IMG/VR virus record: IMGVR_UViG_3300009176_000082
Coordinates: 1-22,375 of that record
Origin: a virus
Reading direction: 5' to 3' (one strand)
DNA length: 22,375 nucleotides
The notes under the pieces are model-generated. The model was given only the letters and a program-made list of their open reading frames with translations. It did not search any database and had not been told where the DNA came from. Of the stretch, positions 506 to 13,409 are shown piece by piece (position 1 is the first letter of the stretch; the number at the start of each line of letters is the position of its first letter). The translations under genes were made by a program, and so were the position numbers.

Positions 506-1222
506 ATGACCGCCGTCGAGAACGAAGTGTCGCCGTCGTGCGAGGACTGGCCGATCGCTTGGGCGTGCGATACCGGCGACGTTGATCCCGAGCTGCTCGT
601 GCTCGCCGAGGACGGCGCACGGTCGATCCTGTGGGCGTACGGCGGTCGCAACGTCGGTCGCTGCACGTTCACCGAGGGCTACTACCCGGGTTGCGATGCG
701 TGCCCCGGTGCCCCGTACAAGACGGCGAGCGGCCAGTGGCGCAACGGTGGCGGGGCGCACGACTGCTGCCGCATCCTGCTCGTGCGCCAGCCGGTCGCTT
801 CGATCGAAGCCGTGACCGTGAACGGCGAGCTGCTCGACCCAGCGGCCTACACGACGGACGGGGCCTGGCTCCGTCGCAACGGCGAGTGCTGGCCGTGCGG
901 CGGCGACGACTGCTCGGCACCACCCGTGGTCGTCACGTACACGGCTGGACGCCCGCTCCCGGCGTTCACCCCGGCTGCGATGGGCGAAGTCGCATGCGAG
1001 GTGCTGTACGGCCTCCAAGGCGCAGCGTGCAAGCTGCCGTCCCGAGCCGTCTCGGTGACCCGCCAGGGCGTCACGGTGCAGCTCGCCGCGGCCGACGACC
1101 TCGCCGGACGCAACCGTCTCGGCCTGCCGATCGCCGATGCGTGGATCACGATCATGAATCCCGGTGGGCTACAGGCGGCGTCGCGCGTCTACTCGCCGGA
1201 CCTCGCTCGACGAGGCTCGTAG
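506..1222 (+). CDS. head-tail adaptor (connector) protein
   Basis: This 238-residue protein resembles the actinophage head-to-tail adaptor family related in role to HK97 gp6, which forms the ring below the portal. Supporting features are the central CCRILLVRQPVASIEAVTVNG stretch (visible from residue 90), the VVTYTAGRPLPAFTPAAMGE segment with following Cys residues, and the RQGVTVQL motif followed by a C-terminal NPGGLQAASRVYSPD. It is unusually Cys-rich, with about 12 Cys, several in CxxC-like pairs (CDACPG, CWPC); this may mean disulfides or metal binding. The start has a TAGGCT hexamer 7 bases upstream. The stop shares a base with the next GTG (TAGTG). The family call rests on remembered similarity. 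Confidence 0.75.
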   Translation: MTAVENEVSPSCEDWPIAWACDTGDVDPELLVLAEDGARSILWAYGGRNVGRCTFTEGYYPGCDACPGAPYKTASGQWRNGGGAHDCCRILLVRQPVASIEAVTVNGELLDPAAYTTDGAWLRRNGECWPCGGDDCSAPPVVVTYTAGRPLPAFTPAAMGEVACEVLYGLQGAACKLPSRAVSVTRQGVTVQLAAADDLAGRNRLGLPIADAWITIMNPGGLQAASRVYSPDLARRGS

Positions 1223-1716
1223 TGGAGCAGACAGCGGCAACGGTCTGCGAGGCCGTCAGGGCGTACGTCGCCGACCGGTTGACGGCGTGCGGGTTCGTGA
1301 TCTCGACCACGTACGTCGGTGCCGGTCTGATCGCTTGGGACGACTGCTGCGGGATGCTCGTCGTGGTCCCCGAACGCATCTACCGGAGCGCGGTGTGGCC
1401 GATCGAAGGACCGGACCAGAACGGCTGCTACGAGGGCCTTGCGGCGATCCAGATGACGGCCCTGTGGTTGTCGTGCATGCCGACCGTGGACGACCGTGGC
1501 AGGCCGCCAACGGTGAAGGCGATGACGGCGGCGTACACCGAGTTCTTGAACGCTGCGGCGGTCGTGTGGAATGCCCTCACGGAGCTGCCGTGGGAGTGGG
1601 AGACGACCGGCCTCAACCAGACGTTCCTCGGGACCGAGGGCGGATGCATCGGTGTCGAGACGCGGCTCACGGTCGGGATCGACGAAGACCAGTGGTGCGT
1701 GGCGAGCTGCCCGTGA
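1222..1716 (+). CDS. tail terminator / neck protein
   Basis: The protein has 164 residues. The GTG start at 1222 overlaps the upstream TAG by one base, which points to termination-reinitiation coupling. Residues AGLIAWDDCCGMLVVVPERI, then IYRSAVWPIEG, LSCMPTVDDRGRPPT and the C-terminal TEGGCIGVETRLTVGIDED match, from memory, a conserved actinophage family placed after the head-tail adaptor and usually named tail terminator or head-tail connector complex protein. Such proteins cap the tail tube or join neck and tail. Nine Cys residues echo the Cys-rich upstream adaptor, and the two may be structurally linked. The alternative is a neck protein; the exact ring assignment is uncertain. Confidence 0.7.
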   Translation: MEQTAATVCEAVRAYVADRLTACGFVISTTYVGAGLIAWDDCCGMLVVVPERIYRSAVWPIEGPDQNGCYEGLAAIQMTALWLSCMPTVDDRGRPPTVKAMTAAYTEFLNAAAVVWNALTELPWEWETTGLNQTFLGTEGGCIGVETRLTVGIDEDQWCVASCP

Positions 1717-1729
1717 AACACTTGCGGCC

Positions 1730-2503
1730 ATGACGTTCAAGCTGATGCCTCGTGGCGCGGTGTGGCCGCACGAGCTGCCGTCGAACATGAACGGCACGCC
1801 ACGCCCGCTGCTGCGTCCCGGTCGACCGTGGCTGACGATCCACTACACGGGCGGCGGTACGTGGCTCGACCCCGGCGACACACCGAGCGAGATGCGAGCG
1901 ATTCAGGATTACGCCGCAGGGCCAGGCAAGGCGACCCCGTGGGAATACAACTGGGTGATCGACGGTCAGGGCGTCATCTGGGAGTACGCAGGCGACTACC
2001 GGGCGGCGCACTCGGGCGGCGAGAACGACGACGCCATCGGTGTGCTGCTGCTCGTCGGTTTCAAGGGGAAGTATCCGGACGGCATCGAGTACTGGGAGCA
2101 CCCACCGACCGCGATGATCACCGCGGTACGTCAGCTCCGGTTCGTCCTCGTCGAGCGGGGCATGCTCGCCGCCGACCACAAGATGCTGCCGCACAAGGAG
2201 ATGCCAGGCGCAGCGACCGCATGTCCCGGCCAGGCCGTGATGGCAGCATGGACGTTGCTCACCGCCCCGTGGACGACCACGCCACCAGCAGTAGGAGATG
2301 ATGAGATGTACCTTGCATACCTCGACGACGGAACCGTCTGCGTTGTCGGCTCGGCCGTGCGGCCCGTGTCGAGCGAGGAGATCGAACCGGGCGGCATCCT
2401 CGCCGGTCTGCCCCGCGTCACGCCGGACCCCGGCTCCAACCAGCACTACTGGTTGCGCATGGGAGTCGACGAGTACATCCGTCGCGTGCAAGGTGATGGG
2501 TGA
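1730..2503 (+). CDS. endolysin, N-acetylmuramoyl-L-alanine amidase (Amidase_2/PGRP type)
   Basis: This 257-residue protein would cut the bond between N-acetylmuramic acid and L-alanine in peptidoglycan for host lysis. The Amidase_2 fold is supported by IHYTGGG (zinc ligand His38), YNWVIDGQG (Tyr73 at the usual catalytic Tyr site), AAHSGGENDDAIGV, and LPHKEMPGAATACPGQ (His155 and Cys165 as remaining zinc ligands). There is no signal peptide, so export by a holin is expected. Residues about 190-257 form a separate C-terminal region of unknown family, possibly cell-wall binding. A perfect AGGAG eight bases before in-frame Met193 suggests it may also be made alone. The ATG at 1730 has no clear Shine-Dalgarno sequence. 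The gene sits inside the head-tail connector region rather than after the tail genes. Confidence 0.88.
   Translation: MTFKLMPRGAVWPHELPSNMNGTPRPLLRPGRPWLTIHYTGGGTWLDPGDTPSEMRAIQDYAAGPGKATPWEYNWVIDGQGVIWEYAGDYRAAHSGGENDDAIGVLLLVGFKGKYPDGIEYWEHPPTAMITAVRQLRFVLVERGMLAADHKMLPHKEMPGAATACPGQAVMAAWTLLTAPWTTTPPAVGDDEMYLAYLDDGTVCVVGSAVRPVSSEEIEPGGILAGLPRVTPDPGSNQHYWLRMGVDEYIRRVQGDG
2293..2308 (+). promoter_or_regulatory. internal ribosome binding site and ATG within endolysin
   Basis: AGGAG at 2293-2297 is followed by eight bases and an in-frame ATG at 2306. Translation from here would give a 65-residue product equal to the C-terminal domain (starts MYLAYLDDGTV). The main endolysin start lacks such a site, so this one stands out. 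Confidence 0.5.
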
Positions 2504-2717
2504 CGGGCGCGAACCTGTCGGCGATCCCGACCATGTCGGTCCGAGGATCGCGCCGCGCTGGTTCGACGTGGTACGCCAGGTCGTCATCTTCGTGCTCGGC
2601 GTCTGGCTGATCGTGTTCGCCGCAACGACGACCGGCCACGACCTGCCGTTCATCGTCACCGGCCTCGTGCTGCTCGGGATGATCCCGATGGAACGCGCGA
2701 TGCGGCGGCGAGACTAG
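2496..2717 (+). CDS. small membrane protein, holin candidate
   Basis: This 73-residue protein has a charged N-terminus followed by two hydrophobic segments: about residues 25-44 (VVRQVVIFVLGVWLIVFAA) and about 51-67 (LPFIVTGLVLLGMIPM). It ends in a short basic tail, RAMRRRD. Two transmembrane helices, small size, a basic C-terminus and a position overlapping the end of the endolysin gene by 8 bases fit a holin with two membrane spans. The family is not recognised, and many phages also carry other tiny membrane proteins, so the role is inferred from context. The ATG at 2496 is preferred; a GTG at 2493 is also in frame. Confidence 0.6.
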   Translation: MGDGREPVGDPDHVGPRIAPRWFDVVRQVVIFVLGVWLIVFAATTTGHDLPFIVTGLVLLGMIPMERAMRRRD

Positions 2718-2723
2718 GTCGCA

Positions 2724-3152
2724 ATGGCAACGGTCGAAGTCCGAGTCGTTCACTACCCCGATGTCGTCGAGCACATCACCAGCTCGCCGCAGGGCGACGT
2801 GATGCAAGACCTCCTCAAGCGCGGCAACCGGGTCCTCAACGCCGCACGCCGACTGTGCCCCGTCAACACGGGCCAGCTCCGAGCCTCGCTGTACATGGAG
2901 GCCGTGACGATGGACGGCGGGCCAGCGGTACGCATCGGATCGAACCTCGACTATGCGACCTACGTCCACGAGGGCCACGGCGACATCTACCCGGTGTCGG
3001 CGAAGATCCTGGCCTGGCCTGGCATCAACAACTCGGGCAAGGGATCGAGGCGCTACCGGGGCGGGGCAACCTCGGGATACGTGTTCGCCCACCACGTCCG
3101 ACCCGTCGCCGGGCAACCGTTCCTGCTCAATGCGCTCGACGCCGCCCGATAG
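2724..3152 (+). CDS. HK97 gp10-like neck/tail completion protein
   Basis: The protein has 142 residues. The pattern CPVNTGQLRASLYMEAV (about residues 49-65), then IGSNLDYATYVHEGHGDIYP, and the ending HHVRPVAGQPFLLNALDAAR is the classic layout of the HK97 gp10-like family: a P-x-x-TG-x-L-x-x-S helix, a YAxxVHEG strand, and RPxxGxPFL near the end. These proteins act in head-tail joining or tail completion. The gene follows the holin candidate by six bases and probably continues the connector transcript that the lysis genes interrupt. A hairpin follows immediately after the stop. Confidence 0.82.
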   Translation: MATVEVRVVHYPDVVEHITSSPQGDVMQDLLKRGNRVLNAARRLCPVNTGQLRASLYMEAVTMDGGPAVRIGSNLDYATYVHEGHGDIYPVSAKILAWPGINNSGKGSRRYRGGATSGYVFAHHVRPVAGQPFLLNALDAAR

Positions 3153-3776: not shown

Positions 3777-3814
3777 CTGCGAGCAATCGCCAGCCGGGGC
3801 GCCTTATGCGTTTT
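3768..3814 (+). terminator. hairpin plus TTTT after DUF6884-like gene
   Basis: GCGCCCC (3768-3774) pairs with GGGGCGC (3796-3802) around a 21-base loop, and TTTT follows at 3811-3814. This is a weak but plausible intrinsic terminator for the cargo gene. The left arm lies within the direct repeat. Confidence 0.35.
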
Positions 3815-9705: not shown

Positions 9706-11156
9706 GCAGAGGGCACACTTCCCCCGTCGACGAGCTGGCATCGGTCATCGCCGAGACGCAGGCGCGCGTCGCCGGTCTGGAACGCACCACGCACCTGCAT
9801 ATCGGTGGGACGGGCGGCGGCGGTGGAGGCGAGGTCGTCACCGCTGGCGCTGGCCTGACCAAGACCGGCACGACGATTGATGTGGTCGGCGACTCGACGA
9901 TGAGCGTCACCGCCGACCAGCTCGGCGTGATCAACGATGGCATCACCAACTTGAAGCTCGCCAACATGCCGACCCTCACCTTGAAGGGCAACAACACCGG
10001 GGCGACCGCCGATCCGAAAGACCTCACCGTCGCCGAGGTCAATGCGATGCTCGGCCTCTCCGCTGGCGGCGATGAAGTCTGGGTCGGCCCTCTCGACCCT
10101 GGCACCGGGGTCGGCTACGAGATGTGGTACGACTCCGACGCAGTCTCGCCGTTGGCGAACGACGCACGATGGAACACGGCGTGGGGCGTCGTCGGTGTGA
10201 CGCCGTTGATCACCGTCGACCAGACCGGCATCGGCCTGACGTTGACGAACCTCACCGGGTACGCCATGCCGTTCACCGCGGTCGCGAACCGGGTCTATCG
10301 GGTGACGTGGTTGTTCGCTGCGGCGCAGATCGGCGGGGCAGGCAACCAGACCTTCCGGCTGCTCGACGGCGGCGTGTCGCTCGGCGACATCGAGACGCAG
10401 AACTCGTTGATCAGCGTCCAGAATTCGTTGCGCACGATCGGCGGCGGTCGAGAGCTCACCGACCTCGCCGCGGGTGCCCACAACCTGACGATCGCCGGGG
10501 TCTGCTCCACCGGGACGATCTCGATCTACAACGCCACGATCAACGGGCGCATGGCGGTCATCGACATCGGTCCGGTCGCTGGCGTGATCCCGTCGATCCC
10601 TGGCGGCAACATGTACGGCTTGGAGGCCATCCGGCCTGCCGTGTCGACGGTGGTTCCCGGTTCGCACTTCTACGCCACCGACACGTTCCGCGAGTGGTTG
10701 AGCGACGGCACGAGATGGGTGCAGGTCGCCGGGGTGATGCCACGCTTCCGGCTGATCGGTGGAGGCTCGGGCCAGTCGCTCCCGTCCGGTTGGAACAACT
10801 GCACGTGGGCCACGGGCACCCCGACCGATCCGATGGCGTTGACGAGCGGCGGCGTGTTCACGTGCCCCGCTTCGCATCCCGGTCGCTGGCGCTTCGACTA
10901 CACGATCGACATTCAGGCGTGGAACGCAGGCTTCCGGCAGGCGACGTTGCAGGCGCAACCCGGCTCGGTCAACTTCGCATACCAGTCGACGACCGCGGTG
11001 TCGGCAACGATCGCCAACTACTTCACCGGCTCGGCCGAGTACGTGCTCACGGCAGGGCAGACCGTGCGGGCGATGGCCTACCAGGACGCCGGGACGCTCG
11101 CCGCGAACAGCAACGCCCTGTCGTACTTCCAAGGCCAGTTTGTGGGACCGGTCTGA
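9702..11156 (+). CDS. tail fibre protein with C1q-like C-terminal domain
   Basis: This 484-residue protein starts with a short coiled-coil-like helix (DELASVIAETQARVAGLE), then a His/Gly-rich hinge of six Gly, and a fibre-like region containing LKGNNTGATADPKDLTVAEV, a motif typical of phage fibres. A linker with DEVWVGPLDPG and YEMWYDSDA follows (about residues 127-147). The middle part has beta-rich sequence (NLTGYAMPFTAVANRVYRV). The C-terminal ~140 residues (from FRLIGGGSGQSLPSGWNN to SYFQGQFVGPV) look like a C1q/TNF-like jelly roll often used for receptor binding. ATG overlaps the previous stop. It is probably trimeric. Domain names are by eye. Confidence 0.75.
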   Translation: MSRGHTSPVDELASVIAETQARVAGLERTTHLHIGGTGGGGGGEVVTAGAGLTKTGTTIDVVGDSTMSVTADQLGVINDGITNLKLANMPTLTLKGNNTGATADPKDLTVAEVNAMLGLSAGGDEVWVGPLDPGTGVGYEMWYDSDAVSPLANDARWNTAWGVVGVTPLITVDQTGIGLTLTNLTGYAMPFTAVANRVYRVTWLFAAAQIGGAGNQTFRLLDGGVSLGDIETQNSLISVQNSLRTIGGGRELTDLAAGAHNLTIAGVCSTGTISIYNATINGRMAVIDIGPVAGVIPSIPGGNMYGLEAIRPAVSTVVPGSHFYATDTFREWLSDGTRWVQVAGVMPRFRLIGGGSGQSLPSGWNNCTWATGTPTDPMALTSGGVFTCPASHPGRWRFDYTIDIQAWNAGFRQATLQAQPGSVNFAYQSTTAVSATIANYFTGSAEYVLTAGQTVRAMAYQDAGTLAANSNALSYFQGQFVGPV

Positions 11157-12406
11157 TGGGCGTCCTCTACGTCAACGTGGGCGGCTCGTGGGTGCCGGTC
11201 GGTGGCGGCACGACCGACGAGGTCGCTATCGGCCCCGACGACCCGGTCGCAGCGAACCCGAACGTCGAGCTGTGGTATGACACCGATGCGCCGTCTGCTG
11301 GGGCGTCGCTGTACGCCAACCGCAACCTCCTCGACAACGGGCAGCACTCGGTCAACCAGCGACAAGTCGGCAACATCGTGATCGGTTCGGCGACGTTCCT
11401 CGCGGACCGATGGATGGGCTACGACACCGGGGTCGGCACGGCGTACTTCTACTGGTCGACTGCCGCGGCGTTCGGCGTGTTCCCACCGGCAGGCCGACCT
11501 CGACCCGGCAACATCTTGGCGGTCCAGATGAACGTGGCCGAGGCCGCTGCGGCGTTGTCGGCTGGCGACTGGATCTACGTGCGCCAAGGCATCGAGGGCC
11601 AGTTCCTCCAACACCTCAACTGGGGCAGCGCCGACCCTCGACCGCTCGTCCTGTCCGTCGACGTGTACTCGCCGATCGCCACGACCTATGTCGTCGAGCT
11701 GGAACGCTTGGAGGCGACCGCACGATCCATCTCCAAGCTGCTCCCAGTCCCGGCTGGCTTCTCCACCCAAGTCCTGACGTTCCCCGGCGACTCGACCACG
11801 CCGATCACGAACGACAACGCCTCCCGTCTGTCGCTGAACTTCTGGCTCACCGCAGGCTCGTCGTGGACCTCGGGCGCGCTCAACACGTCATGGAACAACC
11901 GGGTCGACATCAACCGGGCTGGCGGCATCTCCAACGCATGGCAGGCCACCGTCTCGCAGCCGGTGGCGTTCACGAATGTCCAACTCGAGATCGGCACGAC
12001 GCCGACGCCGTACGAGGTCCGCCCGTTCGATCAGGAGCTGGCGAAGGCGATGCGCTACTACGAGAAGTCGTATCCGTATGCGACGATCCCCGGCTCCAAC
12101 GCTGGTGGCATCGGGGCGGCTGCGGCCAACGTGTTCGACGGGTCGGTCCCGACTCGTTTGCAGATGACCGGTGTCGACTTCCGAGTGACGAAACGGATCG
12201 CCCCGCTCACCTACCAGGCAGCCTGGACGTTGGACGGCACGCTCGGCTACATCGCTCCGTACAACGCCCCGGCGACCAAGCTGCAAGTCGGCACCTACGG
12301 TACGCACGGCGATCGCCAATGGGCCGCCGACTACATGACGCTCAACGTCAGCGGTGCGACCAACACGTACTACCAGTTCCACTGGGCAGGAGGATGCGAG
12401 ATCTGA
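11156..12406 (+). CDS. tail fibre protein with MGVL...GxW module (416 aa)
   Basis: The ATG overlaps the previous TGA (TGATG). The first residues MGVLYVNVGGSWVPVGGG form a short module that also starts the next two genes. A linker PNVELWYDTDAPSAG follows (about residues 36-50), shared with the next gene. The body opens with NLLDNGQHSVNQRQ and ADRWMGYDTG, a known start of phage fibre beta domains, then carbohydrate-binding-like sequence, and FTNVQLEIGTTPTPYEVRPF before AKAMRYYEKSYPYA. The C-terminal ~90 residues vary from its neighbours. Such proteins decorate tail tips and bind host surface sugars; the ligand is not predictable. The call rests on motifs and location among fibre genes. Confidence 0.75.
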   Translation: MGVLYVNVGGSWVPVGGGTTDEVAIGPDDPVAANPNVELWYDTDAPSAGASLYANRNLLDNGQHSVNQRQVGNIVIGSATFLADRWMGYDTGVGTAYFYWSTAAAFGVFPPAGRPRPGNILAVQMNVAEAAAALSAGDWIYVRQGIEGQFLQHLNWGSADPRPLVLSVDVYSPIATTYVVELERLEATARSISKLLPVPAGFSTQVLTFPGDSTTPITNDNASRLSLNFWLTAGSSWTSGALNTSWNNRVDINRAGGISNAWQATVSQPVAFTNVQLEIGTTPTPYEVRPFDQELAKAMRYYEKSYPYATIPGSNAGGIGAAAANVFDGSVPTRLQMTGVDFRVTKRIAPLTYQAAWTLDGTLGYIAPYNAPATKLQVGTYGTHGDRQWAADYMTLNVSGATNTYYQFHWAGGCEI

Positions 12407-12951
12407 TGGGCGTTCTGCGTGCTCGTGTGGGCGGGCAATGGGTCGACATCGGCGGAGCTACGGACGCCGTGTGGGTCGACACGGCCGCCCCGGCCGACCC
12501 GAATGTCGAGCTGTGGTACGACACGGACGCCCCGGCGAACGGGCCACCGGTCACGTCCAAGGTGTACAGCAAGACGATGACGCCGACCACGGTCAACTCG
12601 GGAGGCGCGGGCTATGCCGACTGGTTCACGATCGACGCTGCGGTGCCGGTGCCAGCGTGGGCGACCCGTTTCCGGATCGTGTTGATGATGAGCTACCTGC
12701 TGTACCAGACGGCGGGCGGCAACATCTACGGCGTGCGTGTCGCGCTCGGTGGCGCGGTCGGGGCGGGATGGAACTTCGACGACAGCAGCAAGTCGCACTT
12801 CGACATCAACCTCACCGACAACATGGCCGTTGTCGCGCCAGGCACGAACCAGGTCCTCAAGGTGCAGGCCTCTCGGATCGCCGGGACGGGCACATGGTCG
12901 TGCGGCACGTTCGGCTCCACGGTCGGCGCAACGATCGACTGGCTGGCCTGA
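12406..12951 (+). CDS. tail fibre/tip protein with MGVL...GxW module (181 aa)
   Basis: The ATG overlaps the previous stop (TGATG); an AGGAGG at 12388-12393 lies 12 bases upstream, longer than ideal spacing. The N-terminus MGVLRARVGGQWVDIGGA repeats the module of the upstream gene, and PNVELWYDTDAPANG repeats its linker. The remaining ~125 residues are a single beta-rich domain (PAWATRFRIVLMMSYLLYQ, VRVALGGAVGAGWNFDDSS, TNQVLKVQASRIAGTGTWS) of unknown family. It may be an adhesin or tail decoration protein that attaches through its common N-terminus. No catalytic motif is visible. Confidence 0.7.
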   Translation: MGVLRARVGGQWVDIGGATDAVWVDTAAPADPNVELWYDTDAPANGPPVTSKVYSKTMTPTTVNSGGAGYADWFTIDAAVPVPAWATRFRIVLMMSYLLYQTAGGNIYGVRVALGGAVGAGWNFDDSSKSHFDINLTDNMAVVAPGTNQVLKVQASRIAGTGTWSCGTFGSTVGATIDWLA

Positions 12952-13409
12952 TGGGCGTCCTGCGAGTCAAGGTCAACGGGCAATGGATCGACATCGGGTC
13001 CGGCGCGCCATCGGCCGGTGCGGTGTACGGCGTCAACCACTACGTTGCGCAGCTCGGCCCGTCGACCGTGATCCCGTCCGGCACGCCGGTCGTGTTGGGA
13101 ACGATCAACATGCCCGCCTCGCCCGCAGGGACGCTGCTCGACATCGGCTGGGTCGGCTACATGAACCAGGGCACGGGCGGCACCGGCTCGACGTTCCTCA
13201 CCGTGCGAGTCAACGGCGTCGACCAGTACCCGACCGTGGTGGTCGGTGACCGGGTCCAGTTGGAGTCGTACTGCGGTCGCTGCCTCGCTGCGGCCCCGGC
13301 GAACGTCGCCTACACGGTCACGCTCGTCGGGGTGAAGGCGTCGGCCGGTGGCACCATCCAAGCGCAGGGCAGCAACACGCTCCTAACCGTCGTGTCGTAC
13401 CGGCCGTGA
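12951..13409 (+). CDS. tail fibre/tip protein with MGVL...GxW module (152 aa)
   Basis: This is the third gene in a row starting with the module, here MGVLRVKVNGQWIDIGSG, again with a TGATG overlap. It lacks the WYDTDA linker; the module passes directly into a compact beta domain (YGVNHYVAQLGPSTVIPSG, LLDIGWVGYMNQGTGGTGS, FLTVRVNGVDQYPTVVVGD, YTVTLVGVKASAGGTIQAQ). The DNA around the GQW(V/I)DIG segment is nearly identical to the previous gene, so recent duplication or recombination of the module is likely. Function beyond a structural tail role is unknown. Confidence 0.7.
   Translation: MGVLRVKVNGQWIDIGSGAPSAGAVYGVNHYVAQLGPSTVIPSGTPVVLGTINMPASPAGTLLDIGWVGYMNQGTGGTGSTFLTVRVNGVDQYPTVVVGDRVQLESYCGRCLAAAPANVAYTVTLVGVKASAGGTIQAQGSNTLLTVVSYRP

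Follow-up and report, generated by a model that had tools for sequence, protein, structure and literature searches.

Does a single phage gene encode two endolysin polypeptides? The question is raised by the endolysin gene of an uncultured soil phage, studied here in a window of 22,375 bases (the whole uncultured-virus record, IMGVR_UViG_3300009176_000082), where a ribosome-binding sequence and an in-frame ATG lie inside the reading frame. The reading favoured here, with a probability of roughly 0.8, is that of a single-gene two-polypeptide endolysin, in which the full-length protein would be accompanied by a 65-amino-acid C-terminal domain produced from the internal start. Judged from comparative sequence evidence, internal initiation at Met193 is very probable, while assembly of the full-length and short chains is likely by analogy with characterized endolysins.

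The endolysin gene and its genomic context

The features of the locus are the following:

1730..2503, plus strand: endolysin gene, full-length product of 257 amino acids; open reading frame with an ATG start and without a Shine–Dalgarno (SD) sequence
1829..2233, plus strand: Amidase_2 catalytic domain, residues 34–168 (Pfam PF01510, E = 1.8e-11)
2261..2305, plus strand: linker (TAPWTTTPPAVGDDE region), Pro-rich and then acidic, with the SD inside the acidic codons
2293..2297, plus strand: internal SD AGGAG, 8 nt before an ATG; extended form AGGAGATGAT, with one mismatch to AGGAGGTGAT; kept in relatives
2306..2308, plus strand: internal start codon ATG (Met193), in frame with the reading frame from 1730
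2306..2503, plus strand: C-terminal domain of type A, predicted separate 65-amino-acid product; four strands and two helices, pLDDT 95
2496..2717, plus strand: candidate holin of 73 amino acids with one or two hydrophobic segments, overlapping the endolysin stop

The catalytic domain scores 44.9 bits against the Amidase_2 profile, above the curated cut-off of 26, and H38, H155 and C165 do not vary among eight aligned relatives, as would be expected of this family's zinc ligands. The PHROG endolysin match (phrog_1493) covers the catalytic part and ends at residue 184. A catalytic domain (34–168) and a separate, confidently predicted fold (193–257) are therefore found within one reading frame, as in the known single-gene two-polypeptide endolysins.

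The endolysin ATG at 1730 follows the stop of the preceding gene after 13 nt, and a search for a promoter-like site near the gene found none. The endolysin and holin-like genes stand within the head–tail connector block (506–3152) and not 3´ of the tail genes, flanked by a head–tail adaptor (506–1222) and a Neck1/HK97-gp10 gene (2724–3152). Homologues of the candidate holin also follow the endolysins of the related loci L002 and L046. The host is likely an actinobacterium, since phages of Streptomyces, Gordonia, Mycobacterium and other actinobacteria provide the closest sequences to its tape-measure protein and to the second amidase group described below.

Elsewhere in the window, three consecutive genes (11156–12406, 12406–12951 and 12951–13409) open with the same N-terminal module, MGVL(Y/R)xxVxGxWxxIG-like, with a one-base overlap between each start and the stop before it. 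PNVELWYDTDAP is a further feature common to the first two. The three resemble tail-appendage paralogues built on a common adapter.

The internal start site in the window

The first-pass annotation, made from the letters alone, had described an AGGAG at ideal 8-base spacing before an in-frame Met193 at the border of the amidase and the C-terminal region, and a full-length start without a visible site. These descriptions proved exact. The AGGAG (2293–2297) is separated by an 8-nt spacer (2298–2305) from the ATG (2306–2308), the linker that follows the amidase ends at Met193, and the product from Met193 of 257 does have 65 residues. The calculated anti-SD pairing is -7.8 kcal/mol at the internal site versus -2.4 kcal/mol at the full-length start.

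Within the window, AGGAGN8ATG occurs once, at the endolysin site. At least one occurrence was found in 35 of 100 shuffled versions of the window; given that about a third of them contain the pattern, the window alone is no proof of function, and it is the comparative evidence that excludes chance for this site. The internal SD is stronger than approximately 98% of the other in-frame NTG sites. Among the likely gene starts of the window that were examined, the internal endolysin start combines the strongest SD with the least mRNA structure.

Most likely gene starts between 506 and 21023 have no recognisable SD, the internal endolysin start being the best seen, which suggests that coupling or SD-independent initiation is the rule in this phage. 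Several of its genes abut or overlap their neighbours through TGATG-type junctions and may therefore rely on translational coupling. We infer that an in-frame internal start would be unable to use such coupling.

Conservation of the second start

Searches of uncultured viral contigs provided 24 usable loci, giving a set of 25 with the window. One further contig, present as L001, L006 and L030 and carrying a nucleotide-identical endolysin gene, was left out of this count. In L001 (IMGVR_UViG_3300025934_000065, 30.7 kb), the surrounding 5.5 kb compare with the window at about 89% identity without gaps; this pattern could stem from a recent exchange or from indels between phages that are otherwise near-identical.

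In all 25 loci, the in-frame codon at the domain junction that opens the C-terminal domain is ATG or GTG (GTG in L010, L015, L016 and L022, ATG in most loci), so that the internal start takes an equal relative position throughout, as in the known two-polypeptide group. An SD core of at least 5 nt precedes this codon in 84% of the loci, compared with 5.4% of the 370 in-frame NTG codons found elsewhere in these genes. The mean anti-SD pairing is -8.3 kcal/mol at the junction codon, -3.3 at the other in-frame NTG codons and -3.4 at the full-length starts. The site is thus conserved, as the first-pass annotation had asked of relatives. Examples of the junction are AGGAGATGACGATATG (L002), AGGAGGATGACGAAGTG (L022), AGGAGGACACCGCCGTG (L015), AGGAGTCCCCGCCGTG (L016) and GGAGGATCACATG (L033).

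The SD is weak in L034 and L044 (AAGGA, 10 bases away), has a shorter core in L004, L013 and L046, and is gone in L045. The near-identical endolysins of L044 and L045 differ at the internal SD (2465–2500; GAAGGACGAAG versus GAAAGAAGACG), constituting a natural SD-weakened variant. No corresponding internal SD or start was found in the amidase-related L012, whose C-terminal region is longer and carries repeats that are LysM-like as read by eye.

Regarding more distant relatives, the full-length protein had no match among cultured phages, the C-terminal domain had none there at a useful E-value, and two scans of bacterial genomes gave no confirmed relative. Free-standing copies of the C-terminal domains of type A or type B were searched for and none was found, every copy being fused.

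Exchange of modules around the internal start

Three kinds of N-terminal part are joined to at least five kinds of C-terminal part in these loci. The N-terminal parts are the Amidase_2 domain of the window, a second Amidase_2 group (L019, L031–L042 and L044–L046) and a third kind in L022, for which no Pfam match was obtained. The C-terminal parts comprise type A (the window, L013, L031–L042 and L044–L046), type B (L002, L010, L015, L019 and L022) and kinds with a single example each (L004, L014 and L016). In L004 (3004–3768), where the contig ends within the gene, the C-terminal part contains RVYDSRNVGQLGPNEIRTI, which we take to resemble repeats of the R-x-x-D-(T/S)-R kind, as they occur in surface proteins of actinobacteria.

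Pairwise identities change abruptly between the two parts. The window shares 75% of its N-terminal and 5% of its C-terminal residues with L002, and 8% and 63%, respectively, with L036. The corresponding values are 1% and 74% for L002 and L019, 1% and 79% for L010 and L022, and 59% and 5% for L019 and L036. At the nucleotide level, L010 and L022 are 23% identical from -60 to -20, 79% from -14 to 0 and 77% past the start, placing the exchange boundary, as far as the alignments tell, at or very near the internal SD.

The second start is kept even though the amidase or the C-terminal domain has been swapped for an unrelated one. That it might be a relic is hard to reconcile with its persistence while either flank is replaced. 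We lean slightly towards a broader proposal, in which the exchangeable endolysin unit of these uncultured soil phages would be a cistron-like cassette consisting of SD, start codon and C-terminal domain. Recombination at the internal SD, or directly beside it, would have brought in unrelated C-terminal domains and amidases while retaining the second start, making dual products a general, selected feature of the architecture rather than of one domain family.

Marks of initiation beyond the protein code

Initiation regions are usually marked by open structure and by A/T-rich codons right after the start. The SD of these genes lies on linker codons for Gly, Glu and Asp, and synonymous recoding of the linker often restores a similar SD pairing, the actual codon choice being mildly unusual (Fisher p = 0.02–0.03). 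Selection for acidity at the protein level could thus explain part of the internal SD. The synonymous-codon analysis of SD strength being too weak to decide, calibrated tests of mRNA openness and GC3 were added.

In 19 representatives, the 50 bases surrounding the internal start are far less structured than their own synonymous recodings (Fisher p = 1.9e-8). In the window, the minimum free energy around the internal start is -5.1 kcal/mol, against a gene mean of -14.8 kcal/mol. The same test on 228 control positions of the same genes gave a near-uniform p distribution (3.5% below 0.05), from which the internal sites differ with p = 9e-8. Furthermore, GC3 drops to 44% (25/57) in codons +1 to +3 past the internal start, versus 81% further on (589/729; p = 4e-9), when 83% would be expected from the amino acids at these positions. 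All these openness and GC3 p-values are approximate, as the two tests partly overlap and the representatives are related to each other.

The openness and the drop in GC3 after the internal Met indicate, at the level of sequence, selection for initiation. The earlier suggestion of a 65-residue product is supported by the conserved site, the open mRNA and the GC3 drop.

The 65-residue C-terminal domain

The AlphaFold model of the type A domain, built from a 17-sequence alignment, is confident (pLDDT 95) and consists of strands and two helices. Its first PDB match in Foldseek was LysIME-EF1, with an E-value of 0.45 that is not significant alone. On realignment, the cell-wall-binding domain (CBD) of LysIME-EF1 (residues 168–236) ranked first with a Z of 4.4 and that of Lys170 second with 3.9, the next match reaching 2.8; these scores are weak, and the two alignments span 55–57 of the 65 residues at an rmsd of 2.8–3.1. 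A viral structure library gave weak matches only.

Neither a Pfam nor a PHROG model matched the type A domain, hmmsearch of the PDB sequences with it returned no match, and hhalign found none between the type A or type B profile and an Enterococcus CBD profile. Because profiles reveal no sequence relation, the type A domain is said to resemble the CBDs of LysIME-EF1 and Lys170 and not to belong to their family. The designation of a new sequence family in the first-pass annotation holds for the tools used, and the domain is probably wall-binding.

Homology between types A and B was not detected by profiles. The type B model is of low confidence (pLDDT 61.5) and without a structural match, so nothing is concluded from it.

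Proposed mechanism and alternative explanations

It is proposed that ribosomes entering at 1730 would produce the amidase, the linker and the C-terminal domain, while those binding the SD at 2293 would start at Met193 and produce the C-terminal domain alone. The short product may then join the full-length one via its C-terminal domain, as in LysIME-EF1 and Lys170 (one full-length to three short chains), and the additional copies of the domain would raise wall-binding avidity.

An unlikely alternative is that both products are made without assembling, the free C-terminal domain acting alone; it might, for instance, occupy the wall sites of debris or set the timing of lysis. Dual-product endolysins without detectable interaction have been reported, as in LysJavan488 (PMC9430671). 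However, heteromultimers have been reported for six members of the group with one catalytic and one C-terminal domain (PMC9430671), and the best structural matches of the type A domain are CBDs that form oligomers.

It is improbable that the SD-like sequence is a side effect of protein-level selection for an acidic linker, with no initiation taking place. The frequent recovery of SD-like energy on recoding speaks for this explanation, but it leaves the strict junction NTG, the open mRNA and the GC3 drop without a cause. Moreover, L016 has no acidic residue at its junction (GIQTGVPA) and yet displays AGGAG-8-GTG, and the SD is built in different codon phases in different genes (GGA-GAT, CAG-GAG and ACG-GAG).

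Even less probable is a role of the internal SD in making elongating ribosomes pause, which would leave the amidase time to fold ahead of the next domain. The location of the SD at a domain boundary would suit such a role, whereas pausing requires neither a start codon at a fixed distance of 5–11 nt nor an open mRNA nor a downstream GC3 drop.

Finally, it is hardly credible that the SD serves the 139-amino-acid frame (2298–2717) running into the holin-like gene, which does open with ATG codons at 2298 and 2301, for these follow AGGAG at 0 and 3 nt, a spacing that is too short, and the frame is not kept in L002, where the holin-like reading frame starts only at 3785, past the endolysin stop.

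Novelty and significance

Internal initiation at Met193 would add new C-terminal domain families to the two-polypeptide endolysins, in phages without a close cultured relative. Besides these families, the group of uncultured phages is new, and so is the comparative evidence of a start kept through domain exchange, which no paper found in a search of the open-licence literature describes. Module exchange around a fixed start, together with initiation-like openness beyond the protein code, is stronger evidence than an SD match.

If confirmed, the making of surplus binding domains by one gene would be a solution arrived at repeatedly with unrelated domains. The C-terminal domains would then be candidates for small tags that bind uncultured soil bacteria. 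As a warning for expression work, codon-optimising such endolysins would erase the second start.

Comparison with known two-polypeptide endolysins

The principle named in the first-pass annotation, by which some endolysins add copies of their binding domain from an internal start, is known (PMC9430671, PMC7098653). A survey of 3,780 endolysins from phages infecting Gram-positive bacteria and mycobacteria yielded predictions of an internal start for about half of them, and four were confirmed (PMC9430671). A caution comes from two lactococcal endolysins, which in E. coli yielded a single product despite their predicted internal starts (PMC9371310).

In the clostridial phage endolysins CTP1L, CS74L and CD27L, a linker SD and a secondary ATG or GTG start likewise make a free binding domain, which is reduced or abolished by SD mutation; they differ in their binding-domain families and in the 2:2 complexes proposed for them (PMC4777826). 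The mycobacteriophage endolysins Ms6 LysA and Pollywog also have in-frame internal starts, in phages of Actinobacteria (PMC9430671), but their short product comprises a second catalytic domain and the binding domain, whereas that of the window would be a lone 65-amino-acid domain. With the PF01510 Amidase_2 endolysins and phrog_1493, the window endolysin has the catalytic domain in common.

Lys170 of Enterococcus phage F170/08 (CBD structure 7d55) is similar in kind, a single-gene two-polypeptide endolysin (PMC9430671) and the second structural match of the type A domain; it differs in the lack of a sequence match and in that its 1:3 complex is known.

The closest parallel is LysIME-EF1, which also forms 1:3 complexes (PMC7098653, PMC9430671) and whose internal start has been verified by mutation (PMC7098653). 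It too has one gene, an internal SD and ATG at the end of the linker and a short C-terminal product, of about 70 amino acids. Its junction, AAAGGAGACGATGATATTATG / KGDDDIM, closely resembles TAGGAGATGATGAGATG / VGDDEM of the window, the two being near-identical in GGAGACGATGATATTATG versus GGAGATGATGAGATG. Its CBD, aligned from its own internal Met168, is the top-ranking, if low-scoring, structural match of the type A domain. The catalytic domain is CHAP in LysIME-EF1 and Amidase_2 in the window, and the C-terminal domains have no detectable sequence relation; the known tetramer is that of LysIME-EF1.
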